IMG/VR virus record: IMGVR_UViG_3300027857_000032
Span: 1-43,268 of that record
DNA length: 43,268 nt
Origin: a virus
Direction: 5' to 3' (one strand)
The notes beneath the pieces are model-generated. The model was not told the DNA's origin. It did not search any database and was given only the letters and a program-made list of their open reading frames with translations. The translations under genes were made by a program, and so were the position numbers. Below are positions 6,156 to 40,717 of this stretch, in pieces. Positions within the stretch are counted from its first letter, which is position 1. Every line of letters begins with the position of its first letter.

Positions 6156-6223
6156 AGCCCGCACCAAAGGCCGCGAAAGGTAGCCACAGACAGGCAGGAG
6201 AAGACCCCGACGGGGGTATCGGG

Positions 6224-6285
6224 CTGTAAGACATCCGCTTGCCGGAATCGGTTTTGTCTTACAGACCGGGCTCGCGTTGTAAGAC
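6224..6285 (+). promoter_or_regulatory. Triple operator-like repeat in front of the RHH gene
   Basis: Three copies of one 9-bp word stand just upstream of the ribbon-helix-helix gene: CTGTAAGAC at 6224-6232, its exact inverse GTCTTACAG at 6256-6264, and TTGTAAGAC at 6277-6285. Their start spacings are 32 and 21 bp, close to whole helical turns. The last copy abuts the ribosome-binding site, so occupancy would block initiation. Autoregulation by the downstream RHH protein is the obvious reading. Confidence 0.7.
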
Positions 6286-6296
6286 AGGAGCGAGTG

Positions 6297-6530
6297 ATGG
6301 CGTCGATTACAGTCAGAGTGTCGGACGAGTTGAACGAGCGGTTGAAGGAGCGGGTGGTCAAGAACGCCACCACGGCAAGTGCGTTCGTTATCGCCGCATT
6401 GCAGGCTTCGCTGGATGGCGAGGATGACCACGACAAGACCGACTGGACCAAGTTGGGCTATCCGGCAATCGCGGGCGAAGTGACCACGAGGTTCAAGCGG
6501 AGCGCGGAGAAGAAGGCGCCAAAGCACTAA
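6297..6530 (+). CDS. Ribbon-helix-helix (CopG/Arc-like) repressor
   Basis: A 77-residue protein with an N-terminal strand (ASITVRVSDELNERLKERV) followed by two helices (ATTASAFVIAALQASLDG), the standard ribbon-helix-helix fold that binds DNA as a dimer through the strand. AGGAG lies six bases before the ATG. The C-terminal tail is charged and ends in lysines. The three repeated words upstream are likely its own operators. There is no toxin gene next door, so a phage transcription regulator is more likely than an antitoxin. Confidence 0.8.
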   Translation: MASITVRVSDELNERLKERVVKNATTASAFVIAALQASLDGEDDHDKTDWTKLGYPAIAGEVTTRFKRSAEKKAPKH

Positions 6531-6592
6531 CAGACCGCAAGATGTGGTGTTGACCGACAGGGCAAAGTCTATTCGGACAGATGGAGGCGGCA

Positions 6593-6865
6593 ATGGTAGT
6601 CGGTGTGGCAGCAGCGGCGGCGGCGGAAGGGTTGGGCTTGATGGCCAGCGGACTGGTGCGGTGCTGCCAGTGCGGCAAGCCATGCAGGGGCGGAGTGACC
6701 GACTACCTCGGCCGGTTCCGGTGCGAGGACTGCGCCCGGCTCTGGGAGGGCGTGGAGCAGGCCCGACGCCGGCAGGCCCAGGCCCAGCAGGAGGACGAGC
6801 GCAAGGCGGCCGTGGCGGTCGAGGAGGCCGAGCGCGAGGCGATGTGGTCGATGCCGCTGCGGTGA
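6593..6865 (+). CDS. Small zinc-ribbon protein
   Basis: A 90-residue protein; the ATG at 6593 has GGAGG at ideal spacing, better than the ATG at 6581. After an alanine-rich start it carries two CxxC knuckles, CCQCGKPC and CEDCARLW, about 19 residues apart, expected to bind one zinc ion. The rest is a long charged helix rich in Glu, Gln and Arg. Function unknown; nucleic-acid or protein binding is typical for such folds. Confidence 0.65.
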   Translation: MVVGVAAAAAAEGLGLMASGLVRCCQCGKPCRGGVTDYLGRFRCEDCARLWEGVEQARRRQAQAQQEDERKAAVAVEEAEREAMWSMPLR

Positions 6866-6927
6866 GGCGGCCAGCGCCGGCAGCGCGGAGGCGGGGACCG
6901 ATCCTGGCCGATCCGGGCCGGACCCGC

Positions 6928-7034
6928 CAGGAAAACGATCCCCACTGTGGAAATACCCCGGTGCATGTGAATATGCACCCACAGCCTCCACTATACCCCG
7001 CTGGCCCAAATTTATTTTTCTGGTAATTTTTCTG
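6928..7034 (+). repeat. 107-bp structured intergenic element, copy 1
   Basis: This element recurs at 8483-8589 with the same length. Shared blocks in order are CAGG-AAAACGA, CCACTG, a hairpin opening with GGTG, CACAG, CTGGC, AAATTT, and TTTCTG twice. In this copy the hairpin is GGTGCAT (6960-6966), loop GTGAAT, ATGCACC (6973-6979). The end is very T-rich. It stands between the zinc-ribbon gene and the gene at 7103, 69 bp before that start codon, and is otherwise gene-free. Confidence 0.7.
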
Positions 7035-7102
7035 AGAAGATTTTTCAGAGGGGGAGGGGTGTTCAGGGTCCTGGGTATATTTACTGTGCTTTGGCGGTTG
7101 AG

Positions 7103-7360
7103 ATGGTGAAGCGTTGGAAGTCTGGGGCTGCTCGTGGGAACCGTTTGGGTCGGGACAAGGGTTTTGTTGGGGGCAGTTATGGTGCGGCTGGTCCGGCGGT
7201 TCGGGTGACTTTATCTGGGGATCGGGTTGAACTGGGCATTCCGGTAGGGGATTGGGTAGTGGTTGGGTCTCAATGCCCGTGGAATACGACGCCTGGGGTT
7301 CGTCAGGTATGGCGGCGTGGCGAGTTGGTGAGTGACCCGGCGAAGCGGAAATATGACTGA
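7103..7360 (+). CDS. Unknown protein
   Basis: An 85-residue ORF; the ATG at 7103 is chosen over a TTG at 7091. The product is basic at its start (VKRWKSGAARGNRLGRD) and then beta-rich (VRVTLSGDRVELGIPVG). The codons use far more G and T than in flanking regions. It is the first gene after structured element copy 1. Not recognised. Confidence 0.55.
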   Translation: MVKRWKSGAARGNRLGRDKGFVGGSYGAAGPAVRVTLSGDRVELGIPVGDWVVVGSQCPWNTTPGVRQVWRRGELVSDPAKRKYD

Positions 7361-7369
7361 GGGGCGGGC

Positions 7370-7708
7370 ATGACGGACGATTTGACGGCGCAGGAGGTCT
7401 GGCAGGGTTTCCGTCTGGTTGAGAGTAGGCCTGAGGTTGCCGCCGCTGAGCGGGCTGTCGTGGATACAGGCGTGGCTCGTTACCTCGCTGCTGAGCGCGG
7501 CGTTCCAAGGGCGGAATTCGTCGCCGTCTGCGAGGCATTCAACGATGCCTGTCGCGACCTCCTTCGCCTCCGCGCCGCGCAGGAGAGCGGTCGGAAGGAT
7601 GGTTGCGTGGACCTGGGGGACATACGGGGCGGCCGGTGTCGGTTGACGGCGGATGGTGTGTGCAAGAAGGGTTTGGATTGTCCGTTGATGCGGGCGAGGT
7701 TTGGGTGA
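7370..7708 (+). CDS. Unknown helical protein with C-terminal cysteines
   Basis: A 112-residue protein with GAGGGG upstream of its ATG. Residues 1-75 are predicted helical. The C-terminus contains a CRLTADGVCKKGLDC pattern that could hold a metal. It overlaps the next start (TGATG). The family is not recognised. Confidence 0.6.
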   Translation: MTDDLTAQEVWQGFRLVESRPEVAAAERAVVDTGVARYLAAERGVPRAEFVAVCEAFNDACRDLLRLRAAQESGRKDGCVDLGDIRGGRCRLTADGVCKKGLDCPLMRARFG

Positions 7709-7818
7709 TGGTTTTTCTGAAGGCGGCGGTGGTTCTCGGGCTTTGTGCGATCCCGGTTTTGCTGTTCATTTTGATTTGGGTGTCGTTGCCGTTTCAGTGG
7801 CCGGTAAGGAGGGGTTGA
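7708..7818 (+). CDS. Tiny membrane protein
   Basis: A 36-residue ORF (MVFLKAAVVLGLCAIPVLLF onward) that is a single transmembrane helix with a positively charged end. It overlaps its neighbours on both sides by shared ATG/TGA bases, which supports translation. Holin- or inhibitor-like roles are possible but there is no lysis gene nearby. Confidence 0.5.
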   Translation: MVFLKAAVVLGLCAIPVLLFILIWVSLPFQWPVRRG

Positions 7819-7994
7819 TGGCTCGTCAGTTGATGCGGTGCTCGGTCTGGTTCCTGGGCAGTTGCCTGATCGGGGTGCTGCATGGGGTCGGCGACTTTGC
7901 TGTGGGCAATGAATACCTGAGTTGGTGGCAGGAGTTGCCTTCGATGGCGGCTGGTGGTGCGGTTTGTTGTTTGACGGCTTGGGCGGTGCGGTGA
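7818..7994 (+). CDS. Small membrane protein
   Basis: A 58-residue protein with a perfect AAGGAGG site. It has two hydrophobic stretches (about 8-25 and 42-55) and four cysteines. It follows another tiny membrane protein with an ATGA-type overlap and is coupled by GTGA to the next gene. A membrane pair of this kind is sometimes a lysis cassette, but no endolysin is in the window, so no function is assigned. Confidence 0.5.
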   Translation: MARQLMRCSVWFLGSCLIGVLHGVGDFAVGNEYLSWWQELPSMAAGGAVCCLTAWAVR

Positions 7995-8323
7995 AGGCAG
8001 CGGAGCGGCGGGCTCGGATTGATGCGTATGAGCGGTCGTTTCTGGCTCGGTTGGCGGGTGATGTTTCGCGGTGCCGGCGTGCTTTGAAGGAGGCTGAGCA
8101 GCGGTTGGCTGACGCTCGGGAGCAGAAGGCCAAGGGCGAGTTGATGACAGCGGCGCTGCACCCTTCGGTGGTGCGTATGTTGCAGGCGTTGGAGCCAGCG
8201 CCTCGGCCTGATCCTGTGCCTTTGGCGCCGAGCGGGGATGAGGCGCGGATGCTTTTGATGTGGTCTCATCCGCATTCGGAGGGTCGGGCGGTCGAATTGT
8301 TGGCGGGGAGCGAGTATTGGTGA
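7991..8323 (+). CDS. Unknown coiled-coil protein
   Basis: A 110-residue protein with a GTG start at 7991 overlapping the preceding stop. Residues 5-55 form a charged heptad-like helix (RRALKEAEQRLADAREQKAK). The C-terminal part is proline-rich, then helical. The preceding and following genes are both coupled by GTGA overlaps. Not recognised. Confidence 0.6.
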   Translation: MKAAERRARIDAYERSFLARLAGDVSRCRRALKEAEQRLADAREQKAKGELMTAALHPSVVRMLQALEPAPRPDPVPLAPSGDEARMLLMWSHPHSEGRAVELLAGSEYW

Positions 8324-8532
8324 TCCCGTTTGACGCGACCCGGCAGTGTTGCTGGTGCGGGAGCAACAACGAGGCTGGTGCGGTCGGGTATGGTGGCGAG
8401 CGGCAGTGTCTGGTTTGTGGTTGGGGCGGCGACGGCGAGCCTGACGTGCCTTGCATGTTTTATCGGGTGGTCGGGTGGCTGGCAGGGAAAACGACCTCCA
8501 CTGGTGAAAAGGGCCACCCGGTGTCCGAATGA
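8320..8532 (+). CDS. Small zinc-ribbon protein
   Basis: A 70-residue ORF with GTG start at 8320 (GGGGAG upstream). It has CCWCGSNN and, 21 residues later, CLVCGWGG, the paired knuckles of a zinc ribbon, plus a further cysteine. The last ~16 codons run into structured element copy 2, so the coding end and the element share DNA. Its function is unknown. Confidence 0.6.
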   Translation: MIPFDATRQCCWCGSNNEAGAVGYGGERQCLVCGWGGDGEPDVPCMFYRVVGWLAGKTTSTGEKGHPVSE

Positions 8533-8589
8533 GGACACACAGATTAGTGGATATCGGCTGGCAAATTTTTATTATTTCTGATATTTCTG
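8483..8589 (+). repeat. 107-bp structured intergenic element, copy 2
   Basis: The second copy of the element at 6928-7034, identical in length. Its hairpin is GTGTCC (8521-8526), loop GAATGA, GGACAC (8533-8538): the arm sequence differs from copy 1 but pairing is kept. It shares CAGG-AAAACGA, CCACTG, CACAG, CTGGC, AAATTT and two TTTCTG words. It overlaps the end of the zinc-ribbon gene and ends 27 bp before the ATG at 8616. Confidence 0.7.
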
Positions 8590-8615
8590 CCGGGGCAATT
8601 TAGGGGCTTGGTGGG

Positions 8616-8825
8616 ATGGACATTTCTGAGGTTCGGGATCTGGCTGCGGCTGATCGGTATTGGGCTGAGAAGGGTCCTCCGACGGCGGTAGAGTTGCACA
8701 TGGCGGTTCGGTCGGCTGAGCGGGCGTTGGTTGATGTTTGTTTGGCTGGTGTGGACCATGGCCCGGCGTTGGGTCTGCTACGGCAGTTGCTTGGCAGTCA
8801 GCCAGTGGAGGCTGGGGAATGCTGA
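8616..8825 (+). CDS. Unknown small helical protein
   Basis: A 69-residue protein starting MDISEVRDLAAADRYWAEKG, all-helical by composition. It stands directly downstream of structured element copy 2 and overlaps the next start by a few bases. Not recognised. Confidence 0.6.
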   Translation: MDISEVRDLAAADRYWAEKGPPTAVELHMAVRSAERALVDVCLAGVDHGPALGLLRQLLGSQPVEAGEC

Positions 8826-9118
8826 AATTCGATCCTGATGAGGGGATGGCCCGGGACCACGAGGGGTTCCCGGTGTGTTATGTGAGCCGGATCGCCCACG
8901 AACGGTGGCCTGAGATTGGGAAGCAACTGGCTCTGGCGCCTGAGATGGTGGTGGCGTTGAAGCGGTGCGTCGAGACGATCGACACGCTGTTTGCGATGGT
9001 GGTTGAGGCGACGCACAACAGTGGGGGCATGGACCCGTTTTTCCCGAGCAAGAGCGGCGAGCCTTGGGAGGCGATGCGCGCGGCGCACGACCTGATCAAG
9101 CGGCTGGAGGCTGGGTGA
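8819..9118 (+). CDS. Unknown helical protein
   Basis: A 99-residue protein from the ATG at 8819 (MLKFDPDEGMARDHEGFP), preceded by GGGGA. It is mainly helical after residue 35, with no membrane segment. The C-terminal segment SGEPWEAMRAAHDLIKRLE recalls many short phage proteins with an ATHNSGG-type centre; no function is known to me. It is coupled to the next gene by TGATG. Confidence 0.65.
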   Translation: MLKFDPDEGMARDHEGFPVCYVSRIAHERWPEIGKQLALAPEMVVALKRCVETIDTLFAMVVEATHNSGGMDPFFPSKSGEPWEAMRAAHDLIKRLEAG

Positions 9119-9348
9119 TGGCTGATGCGGAAATCAGGATGGAGGTCATCAGGGACTTGATCGAGCAGATCAGACCCATTCTGGCGGGGCATGGTCCGGG
9201 CGTTCAGGGTGCGGTGCTGGCTTATTTGCAGGCGATATGGGTGGCCGGGCATCCGCCACAGATGCGAGAGCGGTTGCTGGAGTTTCACTTGGAGGCGGTG
9301 CGTAAGCTGATCGTGCCGAACGCCAAGATTATGGGAACAGGGGTGTGA
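9118..9348 (+). CDS. Unknown small helical protein
   Basis: A 76-residue, entirely helical protein (MADAEIRMEVIRDLIEQI onward) that starts within the previous stop. It could form a helix bundle or dimer. Not recognised. Confidence 0.6.
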   Translation: MADAEIRMEVIRDLIEQIRPILAGHGPGVQGAVLAYLQAIWVAGHPPQMRERLLEFHLEAVRKLIVPNAKIMGTGV

Positions 9349-9349
9349 A

Positions 9350-9541
9350 ATGCCAAAAATGCTAAAGTTTAGCAACGGTCCATACCAATATTCGGTAAAT
9401 GCCGACCACGTCTCTTTTATTTTGCGAGGGGTGCACGACACCAAGACGCGGATTTTCTTTTCGGGCGGAGACACCGACTATATCGACGTCGATCTGGATT
9501 TTGACGAGGTCGAGATCCGGCTGTCCGCAGAGTTCCGGTAA
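9350..9541 (+). CDS. Unknown small acidic protein
   Basis: A 63-residue, beta-rich, acidic protein (SGGDTDYIDVDLDFDEVEIR). A second ATG three codons in is an alternative start. The codons are less G/T-biased than the genes just upstream, so this may mark the end of that block. Not recognised. Confidence 0.55.
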   Translation: MPKMLKFSNGPYQYSVNADHVSFILRGVHDTKTRIFFSGGDTDYIDVDLDFDEVEIRLSAEFR

Positions 9542-9620
9542 CCCGGAGCGGTTGGGCGTTACCGCTTGGGGCGGTCCCCCCGAGCCTCACGGCGTCGGGC
9601 CACTCCGGGCCGGTGAGGTC

Positions 9621-9658
9621 TTAACGGGAATCGCCCTGGGTTGGTAGCCGGGCTGGCC
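9621..9658 (+). promoter_or_regulatory. Repeated leader with tandem half-sites, copy 1 (wHTH gene)
   Basis: Contains TTAACGGGAATCG (9621-9633) and, starting 20 bp later, TTGGTAGCCGG (9641-9651), ending at the ATG of the winged-helix gene. The same two words at the same spacing stand before the terminase. Half-sites GGAATCGC (9627) and TGGGTTGG (9637) are 10 bp apart, the geometry used by OmpR/PhoB-type regulators. There is no normal Shine-Dalgarno sequence. Confidence 0.6.
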
Positions 9659-10069
9659 ATGAGCCAGTCTGATCGGGCATTGGCGATCTGCAAGGCCGAC
9701 CTGGGCCTGTGTCGGTTGGCCTTGCACGAAGCCAGAGAGCAAATCCGGGCGCTGGAAGAAGCGCTGGTCCCGACGGCGCCTCCGCAGCAGCCCAAACTTC
9801 CGATGAACCGGGCGACCGAGATAATCCTGATGGCTCTGAGGGGAGCGGACAGGCCGCTCAATCACGAGGCTCTGTGCGCTCGCCTGGACGTAGGGCTGAA
9901 GCGCCGGAAGCCGGTCAACGCACGGCATGTCGATGTGCTGATCTGCCGGCTCCGCGTGAAGCTGAAGGCGTTGAAGCCGCCGATCTACATCCATACGGCC
10001 AGATATCGGGGCTGGTGGATGGACGAGAAGAACAAGGCATTGCTGCGGGCGCTCTACGAGGGCGGTTAA
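9659..10069 (+). CDS. OmpR/PhoB-type winged-helix DNA-binding protein
   Basis: A 136-residue protein from the ATG at 9659. Residues 1-45 form a helix or coiled coil. Residues ~50-130 match the OmpR effector fold: ATEIILMALRGADRPLNHEA, then RHVDVLICRLRVKLKA (the recognition-helix signature VDVxIxRLRxKL), then IHTARYRGWW for the wing. There is no receiver domain. It lies directly before the terminase gene; both start codons follow the same leader with 10-bp-spaced half-sites. Autoregulation and control of packaging genes are inferred; a DNA-binding small terminase is an alternative. Confidence 0.75.
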   Translation: MSQSDRALAICKADLGLCRLALHEAREQIRALEEALVPTAPPQQPKLPMNRATEIILMALRGADRPLNHEALCARLDVGLKRRKPVNARHVDVLICRLRVKLKALKPPIYIHTARYRGWWMDEKNKALLRALYEGG

Positions 10070-10101
10070 CGGGAATCGGCTGGAATTGGTAGCCGGTTGC
10101 C
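10066..10101 (+). promoter_or_regulatory. Repeated leader with tandem half-sites, copy 2 (terminase)
   Basis: TTAACGGGAATCG (10066-10078) and TTGGTAGCCGG (10086-10096), 20 bp apart as in copy 1. The half-sites GGAATCGG (10072) and GGAATTGG (10082) match at 7 of 8 positions with exactly 10-bp spacing. The leader overlaps the stop of the winged-helix gene and ends at the terminase ATG, which lacks a usual ribosome-binding site. Confidence 0.65.
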
Positions 10102-11688
10102 ATGTCAGACACAGATATCGAACGGCGGCTTGAAGCTCTGGAGCGGCTGCGCCGCGAACTGCCGACCTTTGCCGAGGAATGCCTGAAGGTTCAGCCGAAG
10201 GACGTCGAGACCAATCCTTTGGTTCCGCTGGTGTTCAATCAAACGCAGAGGTTTGTGCATCAGAGACTTGAGGACCAGAAGAAGCGGATAGGCAAGGTCC
10301 GGGTTATTATTGGGAAGGGCAGACAAAGCGGCGTCTCTACTTACATAGCGGCGCGGTTTTACCACCGCAGCATCTTCTGGCGCGGCATCCATACTTACAT
10401 CATGACCCACGAGCAGCCGGCGACCGACAACCTGTTCGAAATGGTTGAGCGGTTCCAGGAGCATAATCCGCTCAGGCCATCCACGGGCGTGGACAACGCC
10501 AAGGAACTGGTCTTCGACCGGCTGGGCTCGTCGTATGAGGTCGGGACCGCGGGCACCAAGGCAGGCGGCCGGTCACAGACCATTCAGTTGCTGCACTGGT
10601 CGGAGGTCGCGGCGAGCCCCAATGCCAAAGGGCACTTCGCCGGCATCGTGCAGACCGTGCCGGACTTCGCCGGCACCGAGATCGTGCTGGAGAGCACCGG
10701 AGCCGGGCCGTCAGGAGCCTATTACGAGCACTGGCAAGACGCTGAGCGCGGGATCGGCGACTACATGGCCCTCTTTGTGCCGTGGTTCTGGACCGCGGAA
10801 TACACAAGGCCGTTCGATCCGGACTGGTCTCCCACGGAGGAAGAGCGGTTCTACCAGGGCGCTTATGGGCTGACTGACGGCCAAATGGCCTGGAGACGAG
10901 CCAAAATCGTCGAACTGAAGGACCCGAAGCTCTTCAAGCAGGAATACCCGGCTTCGGCGGTCGAGATGTTCGAAGCGACCGGAAAGATCTCGTATCTGGA
11001 CGCCGAAACCGTGATGGCTGCCCGCAAGGCCAACAAGGAGGGCTTCGGCCCGCTGGTGGTGGGCGTCGATCCGGCCCGGTTCGGCGACGATCGCTTCTCG
11101 GTGGCGTGGCGGAAAGGCCGCAAGGTCTCCAAGGTAGAGAGCCGCTCGAAGATCGGGACCACCGAGGCGCTGGCCTGGCTCAGGGATATCATCGACCAGG
11201 ACAAGCCGGTGCGGATGTTCATCGACGCGGGCGGCGGCGGCGACCGGCTGTATGACATCCTGGAAAGCTGGGGCGAGCCCTATTCCAAGGTGATCAAGCT
11301 GGTGAACTTCGGTGGCCGGCCGCAGACCGGTGTCCGGGTGCAGCGCGACGGAACCAAAAGGCCTGGACCGGTGGATCGGCGCGCGGAGATGTGGATGCGG
11401 TCGAAAGACTGGCTGGAGCAGCCAGCGGGTGCGGATATCCCGGACCTCGATAGTCTCCAGTCGGATGCCTGCGGGCCGACGTTCACCTACCAGACCACCG
11501 ATCAAAAGCTGCGGCTGGAAAGCAAGGAGCAGATGCGGTCGAGAGGGGTGCACTCGCCGGACGAGTGGGACGCCGTTGTGCTGACGTTCGCAGAGCCGGT
11601 GCGGGAATCGATCAGGGTTGCTAACCCGACGGAACTGACCCCGATGCAAATGCCGACCGGACCCGGAACCAGTTGGATGGGCACATGA
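10102..11688 (+). CDS. Terminase large subunit
   Basis: A 528-residue DNA-packaging motor. The ATPase half has a Walker A variant GKGRQSGVST (about residues 70-80), aromatic/hydrophobic strands and an acidic segment; the LESTGAGPSG segment near 195 is the usual coupling motif. The nuclease half has VGVDPARFGDDR near residue 317 (first catalytic Asp), MFIDAGGGGDRLYD near 373 and a late DEWDAVVL acidic motif. It cuts and pumps DNA into the procapsid through the portal. The portal gene is 14 kb downstream, an unusual separation. Its leader is shared with the winged-helix gene. Confidence 0.92.
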   Translation: MSDTDIERRLEALERLRRELPTFAEECLKVQPKDVETNPLVPLVFNQTQRFVHQRLEDQKKRIGKVRVIIGKGRQSGVSTYIAARFYHRSIFWRGIHTYIMTHEQPATDNLFEMVERFQEHNPLRPSTGVDNAKELVFDRLGSSYEVGTAGTKAGGRSQTIQLLHWSEVAASPNAKGHFAGIVQTVPDFAGTEIVLESTGAGPSGAYYEHWQDAERGIGDYMALFVPWFWTAEYTRPFDPDWSPTEEERFYQGAYGLTDGQMAWRRAKIVELKDPKLFKQEYPASAVEMFEATGKISYLDAETVMAARKANKEGFGPLVVGVDPARFGDDRFSVAWRKGRKVSKVESRSKIGTTEALAWLRDIIDQDKPVRMFIDAGGGGDRLYDILESWGEPYSKVIKLVNFGGRPQTGVRVQRDGTKRPGPVDRRAEMWMRSKDWLEQPAGADIPDLDSLQSDACGPTFTYQTTDQKLRLESKEQMRSRGVHSPDEWDAVVLTFAEPVRESIRVANPTELTPMQMPTGPGTSWMGT

Positions 11689-21181: not shown

Positions 21182-21230
21182 CCGGTAGGGCATAGATTAA
21201 GCGCCGAACCGTGACGGGCTTCCACGGGTG
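21168..21230 (+). promoter_or_regulatory. Late leader hairpin A with candidate promoter
   Basis: The 26-nt leader core spans 21205-21230. Its stem is CCGTG (21209-21213) with CACGG (21223-21227) around loop ACGGGCTTC. Upstream, TTGCGA (21168) and CATAGA (21191) could be -35/-10 at 17 bp spacing, putting the transcript start near the hairpin. Copies lie at 26090, 32925 and 39926. It precedes the exported-protein gene at 21260. Confidence 0.6.
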
Positions 21231-21259
21231 TCCAGACCGCTTTCCCTGGTGCCCGTCCT

Positions 21260-26050: not shown

Positions 26051-26115
26051 TTGACCATTTCGTCGTCGGCGGTGTTATTGTCACCGGGCCGAACCGAGAC
26101 GGGCCTCCTCGGGTG
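26051..26115 (+). promoter_or_regulatory. Late leader hairpin B with candidate promoter
   Basis: Core 26090-26115. Stem CCGAG (26094-26098) with CTCGG (26108-26112) around loop ACGGGCCTC. TTGACC (26051) and GTTATT (26074) could be -35/-10 at 17 bp. The central stem pair is A-T here and T-A in copies A and C. It precedes the portal gene. Confidence 0.65.
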
Positions 26116-26144
26116 TTCCAACGCAGTAACGCGGTTTCCCGAAA

Positions 26145-32884: not shown

Positions 32885-32950
32885 TTGACGCAAGGGAATC
32901 CAATACATTAGAGAGCGAACTATTCGGACCGTGACGAGCATCCACGGGTG
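32885..32950 (+). promoter_or_regulatory. Late leader hairpin C with candidate promoter
   Basis: Core 32925-32950. Stem CCGTG (32929-32933) with CACGG (32943-32947) around loop ACGAGCATC. TTGACG (32885) is a good -35; the matching -10 near 32907 is weak (ATTAGA). It precedes the scaffold gene. The loop differs from copies A, B and D, the stem does not. Confidence 0.65.
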
Positions 32951-32984
32951 ATGGAATCCAAAATGACCGGGATATTCACCACTC

Positions 32985-34238
32985 ATGGCGCTTGCCGCTC
33001 GTCCGCAACACGACATCATCTTCAATCCTTCGATCCCGTTGGCTGCAACTTCAGATGCACCCTTGGCCGAGATTGTTCGGCCACCCGAGTCAGCTTCAAA
33101 TGATCAGGGCGACCAGACTGCCGGCGTCCCGAAAGAGATATCGCCTGAAGAGGCAGCACTCGCAGCCGCGGCGCGCAAAGGCGATCCTGCTACAGCCGAA
33201 CTGACCGAGGACGGCAAAGAGAAGCCGGTCGATGCGAAGGCGAAACCCGACGAGGGCAAGCCGGACGAGGACGACGGCATCCAGGTCGATGAGAACGCGC
33301 CTTTCGCCTTCAAGAAGCAGGTCGCCGACATCCGCAAGAAGTCTGCCGAGCGTGTGCAGGCTATCCGTGATGCGGCCAAGGCCGAGGTCGGCGACGAGAA
33401 GTGGGACAAGGCCTGGGAAGCTGCCAACGCCAATGTCGTCGGCAAGTTCCGTGACGAAGTGAAGGCGGCCAAGGCCGAGGCGGCACGTGTCGCCAGGGAG
33501 AAAGAGGCGGTTGCGGCCGAGCGGGAAGCGCTCGCAGCGAAAATCGCCGAACTGGAGGCTGCCAGACCTCGCGAAGAGCCGAAGGCGGACCCACGGCCAG
33601 CCCGTGAAGACTTCGACGACCCGGATCTGTTCGCTGAAGCATTGGTCGCCTGGGGCAAGCGCGACCAGCAACGCGAAATCGAAGCGCAGCAGGCGGCCGA
33701 GAAGGCTGAAGCCGATCGCATCGCCGCTGAGAAAAAGGCCGAAGAGGACAAGAAGGCTGCCGAGGAGCAGGAAGAGGCGGTTCGTGAAGAGAACGCCAGG
33801 ATTGCGCTCGATTGGCAGGCCAAGACTGCCGCCGCTCAGGAGAAGTATGGCGACTACGAAGAGATCGTGATGCGGTCGCCGGCCGACGGCGGCCCCACGG
33901 TGACCGAGATCATGGCACAGGCCATGACGCGCACCGACAACGGTCCCGACGTCGCTTATTGGCTCGCCCTCAATCCCGAGGAATCGGTGAGGATCGCCGA
34001 GCTTCAAAACCCAATCCTTCAATACGGCGAGATCATGAAGATCTCCGGTCGTTTGTCCGCGCCAACGGCCCGGACGCGCACCCGTATCCCAGCGCCGATC
34101 AAGCCGATCGACGCCACCCGAAACGAACCGGTTCAGACCAATCCCGACGATGAGGACATGGACAGCTACTACAAGCGGCGCACACAGGCGACCTTGGCAG
34201 AGCGGCGTCCATTCTTCCCGAACGGCGGCCTGCACTGA
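32985..34238 (+). CDS. Scaffolding-like protein
   Basis: A 417-residue, highly charged protein directly upstream of the coat gene. Residues ~20-95 are acidic and disordered; ~100-285 are long Ala/Glu/Lys coiled coil (AAEKAEADRIAAEKKAEEDK); the C-terminal third ends basic (YYKRRTQATLAERRPFF), like the coat-binding end of P22-type scaffolds. It should direct procapsid assembly and leave before or during packaging. An ATG at 32964 in another frame is not used. Preceded by leader C. Confidence 0.82.
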   Translation: MALAARPQHDIIFNPSIPLAATSDAPLAEIVRPPESASNDQGDQTAGVPKEISPEEAALAAAARKGDPATAELTEDGKEKPVDAKAKPDEGKPDEDDGIQVDENAPFAFKKQVADIRKKSAERVQAIRDAAKAEVGDEKWDKAWEAANANVVGKFRDEVKAAKAEAARVAREKEAVAAEREALAAKIAELEAARPREEPKADPRPAREDFDDPDLFAEALVAWGKRDQQREIEAQQAAEKAEADRIAAEKKAEEDKKAAEEQEEAVREENARIALDWQAKTAAAQEKYGDYEEIVMRSPADGGPTVTEIMAQAMTRTDNGPDVAYWLALNPEESVRIAELQNPILQYGEIMKISGRLSAPTARTRTRIPAPIKPIDATRNEPVQTNPDDEDMDSYYKRRTQATLAERRPFFPNGGLH

Positions 34239-34242
34239 CCCA

Positions 34243-34347
34243 CCCGCTTCGGCGGGGATGACTACCATCGACCCGCTACGGCGGGGTTTTGCCTACCTAC
34301 CTCACCCGCCACGGCGGGGTTTCAGACCGCACCCGGAACGGCCGGGG
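34243..34347 (+). repeat. Four tandem YNCG-type hairpins between scaffold and coat
   Basis: CCCGC-(4 nt)-GCGGG stems start at 34243, 34272 and 34305 with loops TTCG, TACG and CACG; a fourth, CCCGG-AACGG-CCGGG-type, starts at 34332. Spacing is 27-33 bp. The second and third are followed by TTTT/TTT. This gene-free 160-bp stretch ends with AAGGAG before the coat GTG. Attenuation, RNA processing or transcript stabilisation are possible. Confidence 0.7.
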
Positions 34348-39913: not shown

Positions 39914-39950
39914 ACTGACACCAGCCGGACCGAGACGGGCCTCCTCGGGC
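39887..39950 (+). promoter_or_regulatory. Late leader hairpin D with candidate promoter
   Basis: Core 39926-39950, stem CCGAG (39930-39934) with CTCGG (39944-39948), loop ACGGGCCTC as in copy B. Possible -35 CTGGCG (39887) and -10 GTAAAC (39910) are weak. It precedes the gp4-like connector. Confidence 0.6.
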
Positions 39951-39976
39951 TAATTCAATTTAGCTCGGATGCTCAA

Positions 39977-40717
39977 ATGGCGACCACGACGGCCACTGGT
40001 CTCGTTTCTGACGCGCTGCAAATGTTGCAGGTTTACCCAGCCGATCAGCCTATCGCCGATGCAGACCTGGCAAAGGGCATCGAGGTCCTCAACGACATGA
40101 TGGACCTTTGGAGCAACGAGAGCCTGACCTGCTATGCGTGGCTCACGCAGACCTTCACGCTGGTTCCTAACAAGTCGCAATACACCGTCGGACCAGGTGG
40201 GGCTATCAACGGCACACGGCCGCTTCGGGTCAGTGACGCTCCCGGCTCGGCGTATCTACTCGACGCCAATATGAACAAATATCTGATGAGCGTCGATGAC
40301 CAGCTTTCCTGGAACACGATCACCACCGCGGTCGCCAGTTCGGACCTGCCGGATCACCTGTTCTACGACCCGCAATTCCCGTTGGGGATCATCAATGTCT
40401 GGCCGACGCCCAATGTCGGCTATACGTGCTCGTTCCTGAGCTACCTGCAACTGGTCGATTTCAGCAGCCCAAATCAGGCTCTGAGCCTGCCTCCGGGCTA
40501 CAAGCGGGCGATTTCGACCAATCTGGCGGTCATGCTGAAGCCATACTTTCTGGACAGCCAGCTTGACCCGGATATCCGGCTGGAGGCCCGCGAGAGCAAG
40601 GCCACGGTGAAGCGGACGAATATGAGGACACAGGTGGCAGTATTCGATTCGGAACTGATCAGTCGCGGCAACCAAGTATATAATATCTACTCTGATCGTG
40701 GGAGCGGGAGGATTTGA
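39977..40717 (+). CDS. P22 gp4-like head-tail connector (tail accessory factor)
   Basis: A 246-residue protein with the gp4-like pattern: an N-terminal helical part (VSDALQMLQVYPADQPI, EVLNDMMDLWSNESLTCYAW), then LVPNKSQYTVGPGG, RPLRVSDA, and a helical end with LPPGYKRAISTNLAVML. In P22 this protein binds the portal after packaging and seals the head for tail attachment. Preceded by late leader D. It ends three bases before an HNH/AP2-type gene. Confidence 0.85.
   Translation: MATTTATGLVSDALQMLQVYPADQPIADADLAKGIEVLNDMMDLWSNESLTCYAWLTQTFTLVPNKSQYTVGPGGAINGTRPLRVSDAPGSAYLLDANMNKYLMSVDDQLSWNTITTAVASSDLPDHLFYDPQFPLGIINVWPTPNVGYTCSFLSYLQLVDFSSPNQALSLPPGYKRAISTNLAVMLKPYFLDSQLDPDIRLEARESKATVKRTNMRTQVAVFDSELISRGNQVYNIYSDRGSGRI

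Follow-up and report, generated by a model that had tools for sequence, protein, structure and literature searches.

Genomic Setting of the Element

The window, meaning the whole stretch of DNA analyzed, is the 43,268-bp IMG/VR virus record IMGVR_UViG_3300027857_000032. It contains terL at 10102-11688, identified genes for the portal, major head and scaffold proteins, and ten predicted tRNAs. Two copies of a short element are located 1.5-3 kb upstream of terL (Table 1), and the small ORFs regarded as genes that flank both copies are all on the + strand, consistent with the orientation of the element. Above the Rfam gathering score only the tRNAs are matched in the window, with no match at the element. 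No close DNA match was found in 50,697 phage records (near search with window positions 1-25000, distant search with 6900-9350), and the relatives listed for terL are other phages, 178 of 178 below 60% identity, which we take not to be T4-type.

The + strand between 7001 and 9000 has an excess of G and T (GC skew 0.36 and 0.31, AT skew -0.33 and -0.22); this skewed stretch starts near copy 1, and the rest of the window differs. Further upstream, TGTAAGACA and TGTCTTACA repeats (6220-6300) are found immediately 5' of a ribbon-helix-helix-like gene at 6294-6530 (Pfam FitA-like, E 0.042, below the cut-off), where they could form an autoregulatory operator.

Table 1. Positions of the element copies, their parts, the adjoining genes and other intergenic repeats in the window.
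Feature	Position	Strand	Remarks
Element copy 1	6928-7036	+	nhmmer; alignment and controls
5' block of copy 1, GGAAAACGATCCCCACTGTGGAAA	6930-6953	+	83% identical to copy 2 over 24 nt
Hairpin of copy 1, GGTGCAT-GTGAAT-ATGCACC	6960-6979	+	7-bp stem, 6-nt loop
AT-rich tail of copy 1, CTGGC box and TTTCTGGTAATT	7000-7036	+	Extended -10-like TGGTAATTT at 7021
Cassette ORFs 7103-7360, 7370-7708, 7710-7820, 7818-7994, 7994-8323	7103-8323	+	No PHROG match; absent from the homologous place of the relative
Last cassette ORF, 70 aa, two CxxC pairs	8320-8532	+	3' end enters copy 2; stop codon in hairpin loop
Element copy 2	8484-8592	+	nhmmer; alignment and controls
5' block of copy 2, GGAAAACGACCTCCACTGGTGAAA	8486-8509	+	83% identical to copy 1 over 24 nt
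Hairpin of copy 2, GTGTCC-GAATGA-GGACAC	8521-8538	+	
Promoter-like AT-rich 3' part of copy 2, TGGATA-16-TATTAT	8540-8594	+	55/55 identical in the relative
Small gene 3' of copy 2	8616-8825	+	Conserved in the relative, 77% aa identity
Second repeat family, four copies	21196-21233, 26083-26118, 32917-32953, 39919-39954		Ahead of genes 21260, 26145 (portal), 32985 (scaffold), 39977
Third repeat family, 31-nt unit TTAACGGGAATCG...TTGGTAGCCGG, two copies	9616-9654, 10061-10098		Conserved in the relative

Two Copies of One Element

Alignment of copy 1 with copy 2 (6928-7034 against 8484-8589) gives 78 identical positions in 96 ungapped columns, with 21 gap columns. Its score is reached by none of 2000 dinucleotide shuffles, by none of 5000 shuffles in which the compositions of the body and the AT-rich tail were kept apart, and by none of 19,821 random 109-mer pairs from the window. 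The two stretches of about 107 bp singled out by the original prediction are therefore real copies of one element, every composition-matched control scoring lower than the observed pair. The first 24 nt form the strongest block, and the remainder alone also scores above 2000 of 2000 shuffles. The hairpin region in the middle is the least conserved; taken alone, its local score is reached by 230 of 2000 shuffles and its global score by 1 of 2000. From 5' to 3', each copy is composed of GGAAAACGAYCYCCACTG, soon followed by GAAA, a linker, a hairpin that begins with GGTG, CACAG, a GCTGG box, and an AT-rich TTTCTG tail, with the two predicted TTTCTG words present at the T-rich end of both copies. 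A third match to the 5' block in the window, with 3 mismatches, is at 40311 and recurs in a close relative (see below); nhmmer detects no further copies of the element in the window.

An exact IMG/VR scan for the 5' block returned three contigs, two with the block at unrelated places and a third, IMGVR_UViG_3300027857_000029, which is a close relative (terL 95% identical) carrying both copies, 266 nt apart. Among nine records with a related terL, the 5' block is found only in this relative, allowing up to 3 mismatches. No other convincing copy was detected by nhmmer in loci L004-L017, L022 and L023, the single relative on a genome contig (L017) lacks the element within the 15 kb examined, and an exact IMG/VR scan with a tail-only pattern gave no match. 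Three candidates were dismissed as chance: an L004 match to an 18-nt pattern, which covers the 5' block only and is in gene-like sequence; an L006 match to an 18-nt pattern, which is AT-rich and unrelated; and an L024 match from a relaxed scan, covering the first 24 nt only.

Orthologous copies in the two viruses are identical at 89 of 105 and 96 of 106 positions, and paralogous copies at 72-78 of 94-96. Orthologues are thus more alike than paralogues, indicating that the element was duplicated before the two viruses diverged. Perfect runs between the window and the relative span 78 nt at copy 1 (6906-6983) and 55 nt at copy 2 (8540-8594), in neighborhoods of approximately 82% and 78% identity; runs that long also occur elsewhere between the two genomes, which share 72 runs of at least 40 nt. 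An old duplication of intergenic DNA that is neutral and has survived by chance in both of these related viruses would agree with the restriction of the element to these two genomes and with the abundance of long identity runs between them. It is nevertheless improbable, as the perfect runs are embedded in blocks of much lower identity and the order of motifs survives even between paralogues. The prediction of a selected structure rather than a recent duplication accordingly holds for the most part, given the presence of both copies in the relative and their greater likeness as orthologues; its weaker component is the folded RNA, discussed below.

The copies had been described as intergenic and as preceding small genes of no known family. 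Copy 1 is indeed intergenic, located 3' of the stop codon of ORF 6581-6865, but the left half of copy 2, including a hairpin arm, is inside ORF 8320-8532, a putative gene without a family match in PHROG or Pfam. The downstream small ORFs lack PHROG matches, as stated. ORF 8320-8532 reads the 5' block in another frame (...GKTTSTG...) than the phrog_2864 gene of the relative, which ends ...RENDLH* inside it, the stop of the window ORF being a TGA. Since two frames read the block, and since copy 1 has it beyond the end of the preceding ORF, it is best explained by selection at the DNA or RNA level; its sequence was probably kept as such, not as protein.

The Hairpin and Its Possible Functions

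A hairpin is present at the same place in both copies, as predicted. Its arms had been reported to differ; GGTG and CAC are in fact common to both copies, and only three inner pairs are different. In an ungapped comparison of the 20-mers, these three pairs are changed on both sides and remain complementary (P 0.037 for Watson-Crick pairs, 0.089 with GU), which agrees with the idea of a compensated hairpin, but MAFFT prefers one indel in each arm, so that the number of independent compensating events is approximately one. A fraction of 0.0004 of window sites carries a stem of at least 6 pairs around a 6-nt loop; two such stems at the same place in the element are thus unlikely to be due to chance.

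All four copies in the two genomes have the outer half-sites GGTG...CAC in common, around a variable center, as in dimer operators. This pattern could reflect a pair of operators in which the inverted repeat and the 5' block bind a phage repressor or activator of both small-gene blocks, cassette exchange being incidental. The ribbon-helix-helix-like gene just upstream (itself below the Pfam cut-off) would be a candidate for such a regulator, but the repeats ahead of that gene are absent from the elements, and a single binding protein does not require inner pairs that differ and are still complementary (P approximately 0.037). We consider the operator pair unlikely, if worth keeping in mind.

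There is little to show that the RNA itself is folded. Folding z-scores of the entire element lie between +0.28 and -1.76 on the + strand, and between orthologues random substitutions would keep an equal number of pairs 30% of the time (P 0.30). Copy 2 has two mutually exclusive folds in both genomes. In one, its 5' block is able to pair with a downstream AGTGGA (z -3.2 and -3.45); in the other, GGTGTCC pairs with the GGATATCGG region, producing a long hairpin that ends at AAATTTTTATTATTT (-20.6 and -19.6 kcal/mol, with a fold at least as stable in 12 and 5 of 500 shuffles). Such competing folds are what an RNA attenuator or terminator would use, with a leader switching between two structures, one of them a long hairpin directly before a U-rich tract. 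Against this, the full fold is stronger than the alternative by 4-6 kcal/mol, the substitutions between the two genomes do not favor pairing, the tract starts with AAA, and no terminator is found by the scan described below. Moreover, copy 1 and its orthologue form neither fold, so attenuation would be at most a specialty of copy 2, and as an account of the element it is quite unlikely. The outer stem of copy 2, lacking in copy 1, was likewise dropped as a general feature of the element.

Promoter-Like Signals and the Search for Terminators

When 32-mers of the window are ranked by AT content, two of the top three places fall in the tails of the copies; the one in copy 1 starts at 7014. Extended -10-like words (TG-N-TA) are found at homologous places of the copies, and copy 2 has one 9-of-12 promoter match; counting against this reading, its tail also contains a promoter-like match on the minus strand. 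In a sigma-70 weight scan, for which the weights were approximate and in which AT-richness by itself lifts scores, copy 2 ranks 13 and copy 1 ranks 131 among 86,466 sites of the window, and their orthologues rank 4 and 233, respectively, among 42,368 sites of the relative. A promoter in the tail is, to judge from these signals, the likeliest function, with copy 1 offering weak evidence for one.

Scanning for intrinsic terminators gave no hit at the two copies in the window or in the corresponding stretch of the relative (locus L011). The hairpins end approximately 24-28 nt ahead of the AT-rich tract, unlike a rho-independent terminator, in which a U run adjoins the G+C-rich stem directly; only in copy 2 does an alternative hairpin adjoin the U-rich tract. 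Because the stem-loop is 5' of the candidate promoter, it would be part of the upstream transcript, at its end. The conserved words of the element are at least 24 nt ahead of the start codon.

A Replaced Gene Block Between the Copies

The original prediction missed a role of the copies as boundaries: they bracket a gene block that is fully replaced in the relative. The six small ORFs between the copies in the window (7103-8532) have no PHROG match at E 0.1 or better, and no relatives of the gene at 7370-7708 were found in IMG/VR, whereas the relative encodes between its copies a single 48-aa phrog_2864 gene (E 2e-10). Comparison of the window with the locus of the relative by blastn detects homology up to 7025 and again from 8482, with none across 7026-8481; it stops inside copy 1 and restarts at copy 2. 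The perfect run is on the left of copy 1 and on the right of copy 2, as exchange inside the copies would predict.

The two viruses are mosaic. Across window positions 1-21642 there are 14 variable blocks of at least 60 nt, separated by blocks of 78-95% identity. Only one of the 14, the block between copy 1 and copy 2, is edged by copies of one element, with scores reached by 0 of 300 shuffles. The block at 9349-9536 has weak edge similarity only, a gapped 33-column match starting GAGCGGTTG. Since the other 13 variable blocks were exchanged without such an element, it is not the general route of gene exchange, and as it is present in two genomes only, the breakpoints amount to one comparison.

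Two direct copies around a variable block near terL, and 7-bp arms with a 6-nt spacer as used by tyrosine recombinases, might also suggest a site-specific recombination core or another DNA-processing site, such as a packaging site or origin. The breakpoints are outside the spacer, with homology spanning the whole hairpin of copy 1 and beginning approximately 38 nt before that of copy 2, so they do not fit XerCD/dif-like exchange, which we rejected. Deletion between the copies would leave one, yet the relative keeps two, and no known recombinase is encoded among the scanned part of the window ORFs. A role as such a site is therefore very improbable.

A Probable Control Element at a Putative Site of Gene Exchange

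We favor, at roughly even odds (a probability of about 0.5), a composite control element whose copies also provide homology for cassette exchange. Each copy would consist of the fixed 5' block, followed by a stem-loop with which the upstream transcript ends and an AT-rich promoter of sigma-70-like type, from which the next small-gene block is transcribed. Homologous copies around a block would supply short homology with which related phages may swap it by ordinary homologous recombination, and exchange at the copies would spare the control signals on both sides. We infer, in this scheme, promoter activity, recombination at the copies, and a contribution of the stem-loop to 3'-end formation or message stability. 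The element is probably a reusable gene-control boundary for phage gene swaps, not something unheard of.

Cassettes with a comparable layout, termed PeSL, were reportedly described in T4-type phages by Arbiol et al. in 2010 and Comeau et al. in 2014. They combine an early promoter active with the host RNA polymerase and a stem-loop that serves as a transcription terminator. PeSL (promoter early stem-loop) cassettes are known from T4-type phages (PMC4503421). As in these cassettes, a stem-loop in intergenic DNA and a promoter-like sequence recur among small genes without known function, where close relatives differ in gene content, which here applies to 1 of 14 variable blocks. The element differs in belonging to an unrelated phage group, in having only two copies, in its candidate promoter (weak in copy 1) without a classical terminator, in its shared 5' block of approximately 24 nt, and in the overlap of one copy with the 3' end of a gene. 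It may resemble PeSL in the way it works, but given the terL relatives and the lack of a DNA match in phage records we do not classify it as one.

The 13-bp SAS of cluster K mycobacteriophages, present in 11-19 copies at translation starts and with a suggested role in translation initiation, is likewise a repeated short motif before a subset of small non-structural genes, with an imperfect inverted repeat upstream (ESAS) whose left and right repeats vary between phages (PMC3203893). Unlike SAS/ESAS, the words of our two-copy element keep their distance from the start codon, and direct reading shows that the 13-bp GGGATAGGAGCCC at start codons is absent from both copies. PB1-like Pseudomonas phages contain AT-rich boxes and conserved intergenic motifs suggested to be recognition sequences for phage sigma factors (PMC3008698). 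The likeness is in conserved AT-rich intergenic motifs of unknown function; neither a hairpin with compensating arms nor a link to gene exchange is reported in the portion of that source consulted. No description of the element was found in the open-licence papers searched.

How phages exchange small genes with transcription intact is only partly understood. An element with copies at both edges of a swapped block, in a phage group far from T4, would make the idea of promoter/stem-loop cassettes testable beyond T4-type phages, and it provides a sequence handle for locating gene-exchange points in uncultured phages.

Other Intergenic Repeats

The second repeat family forms a 5-bp hairpin around a similar 9-nt loop. 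Two of its copies have the arms CCGTG...CACGG and the remaining two CCGAG...CTCGG (a T-A/A-T double change); the family is also present in the relative (L011 20774-20811, L020 1875-1908). In the third family, the second copy is directly before terL, and a weaker third match is at 11602-11627. The genome has at least two intergenic families besides the element, which suggests that phages of this lineage habitually carry repeated units between genes. A bolder proposal, which we regard as doubtful, sees in the element a mobile, composite unit belonging to an undescribed phage group, with three parts that move as one: a covarying, self-complementary stem-loop, a 24-nt recognition block that stays fixed, and a promoter specific to the phage. 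Together with the other repeat families, of which there are at least two, it would constitute a modular "punctuation" that marks gene blocks and guides their exchange.

Between the scaffold and major head genes (34238-34345), three hairpins resembling CCCGC-NN-CGGCGGG stand in tandem and are followed by a CCGG...CCGG hairpin; the array may represent stacked terminators.
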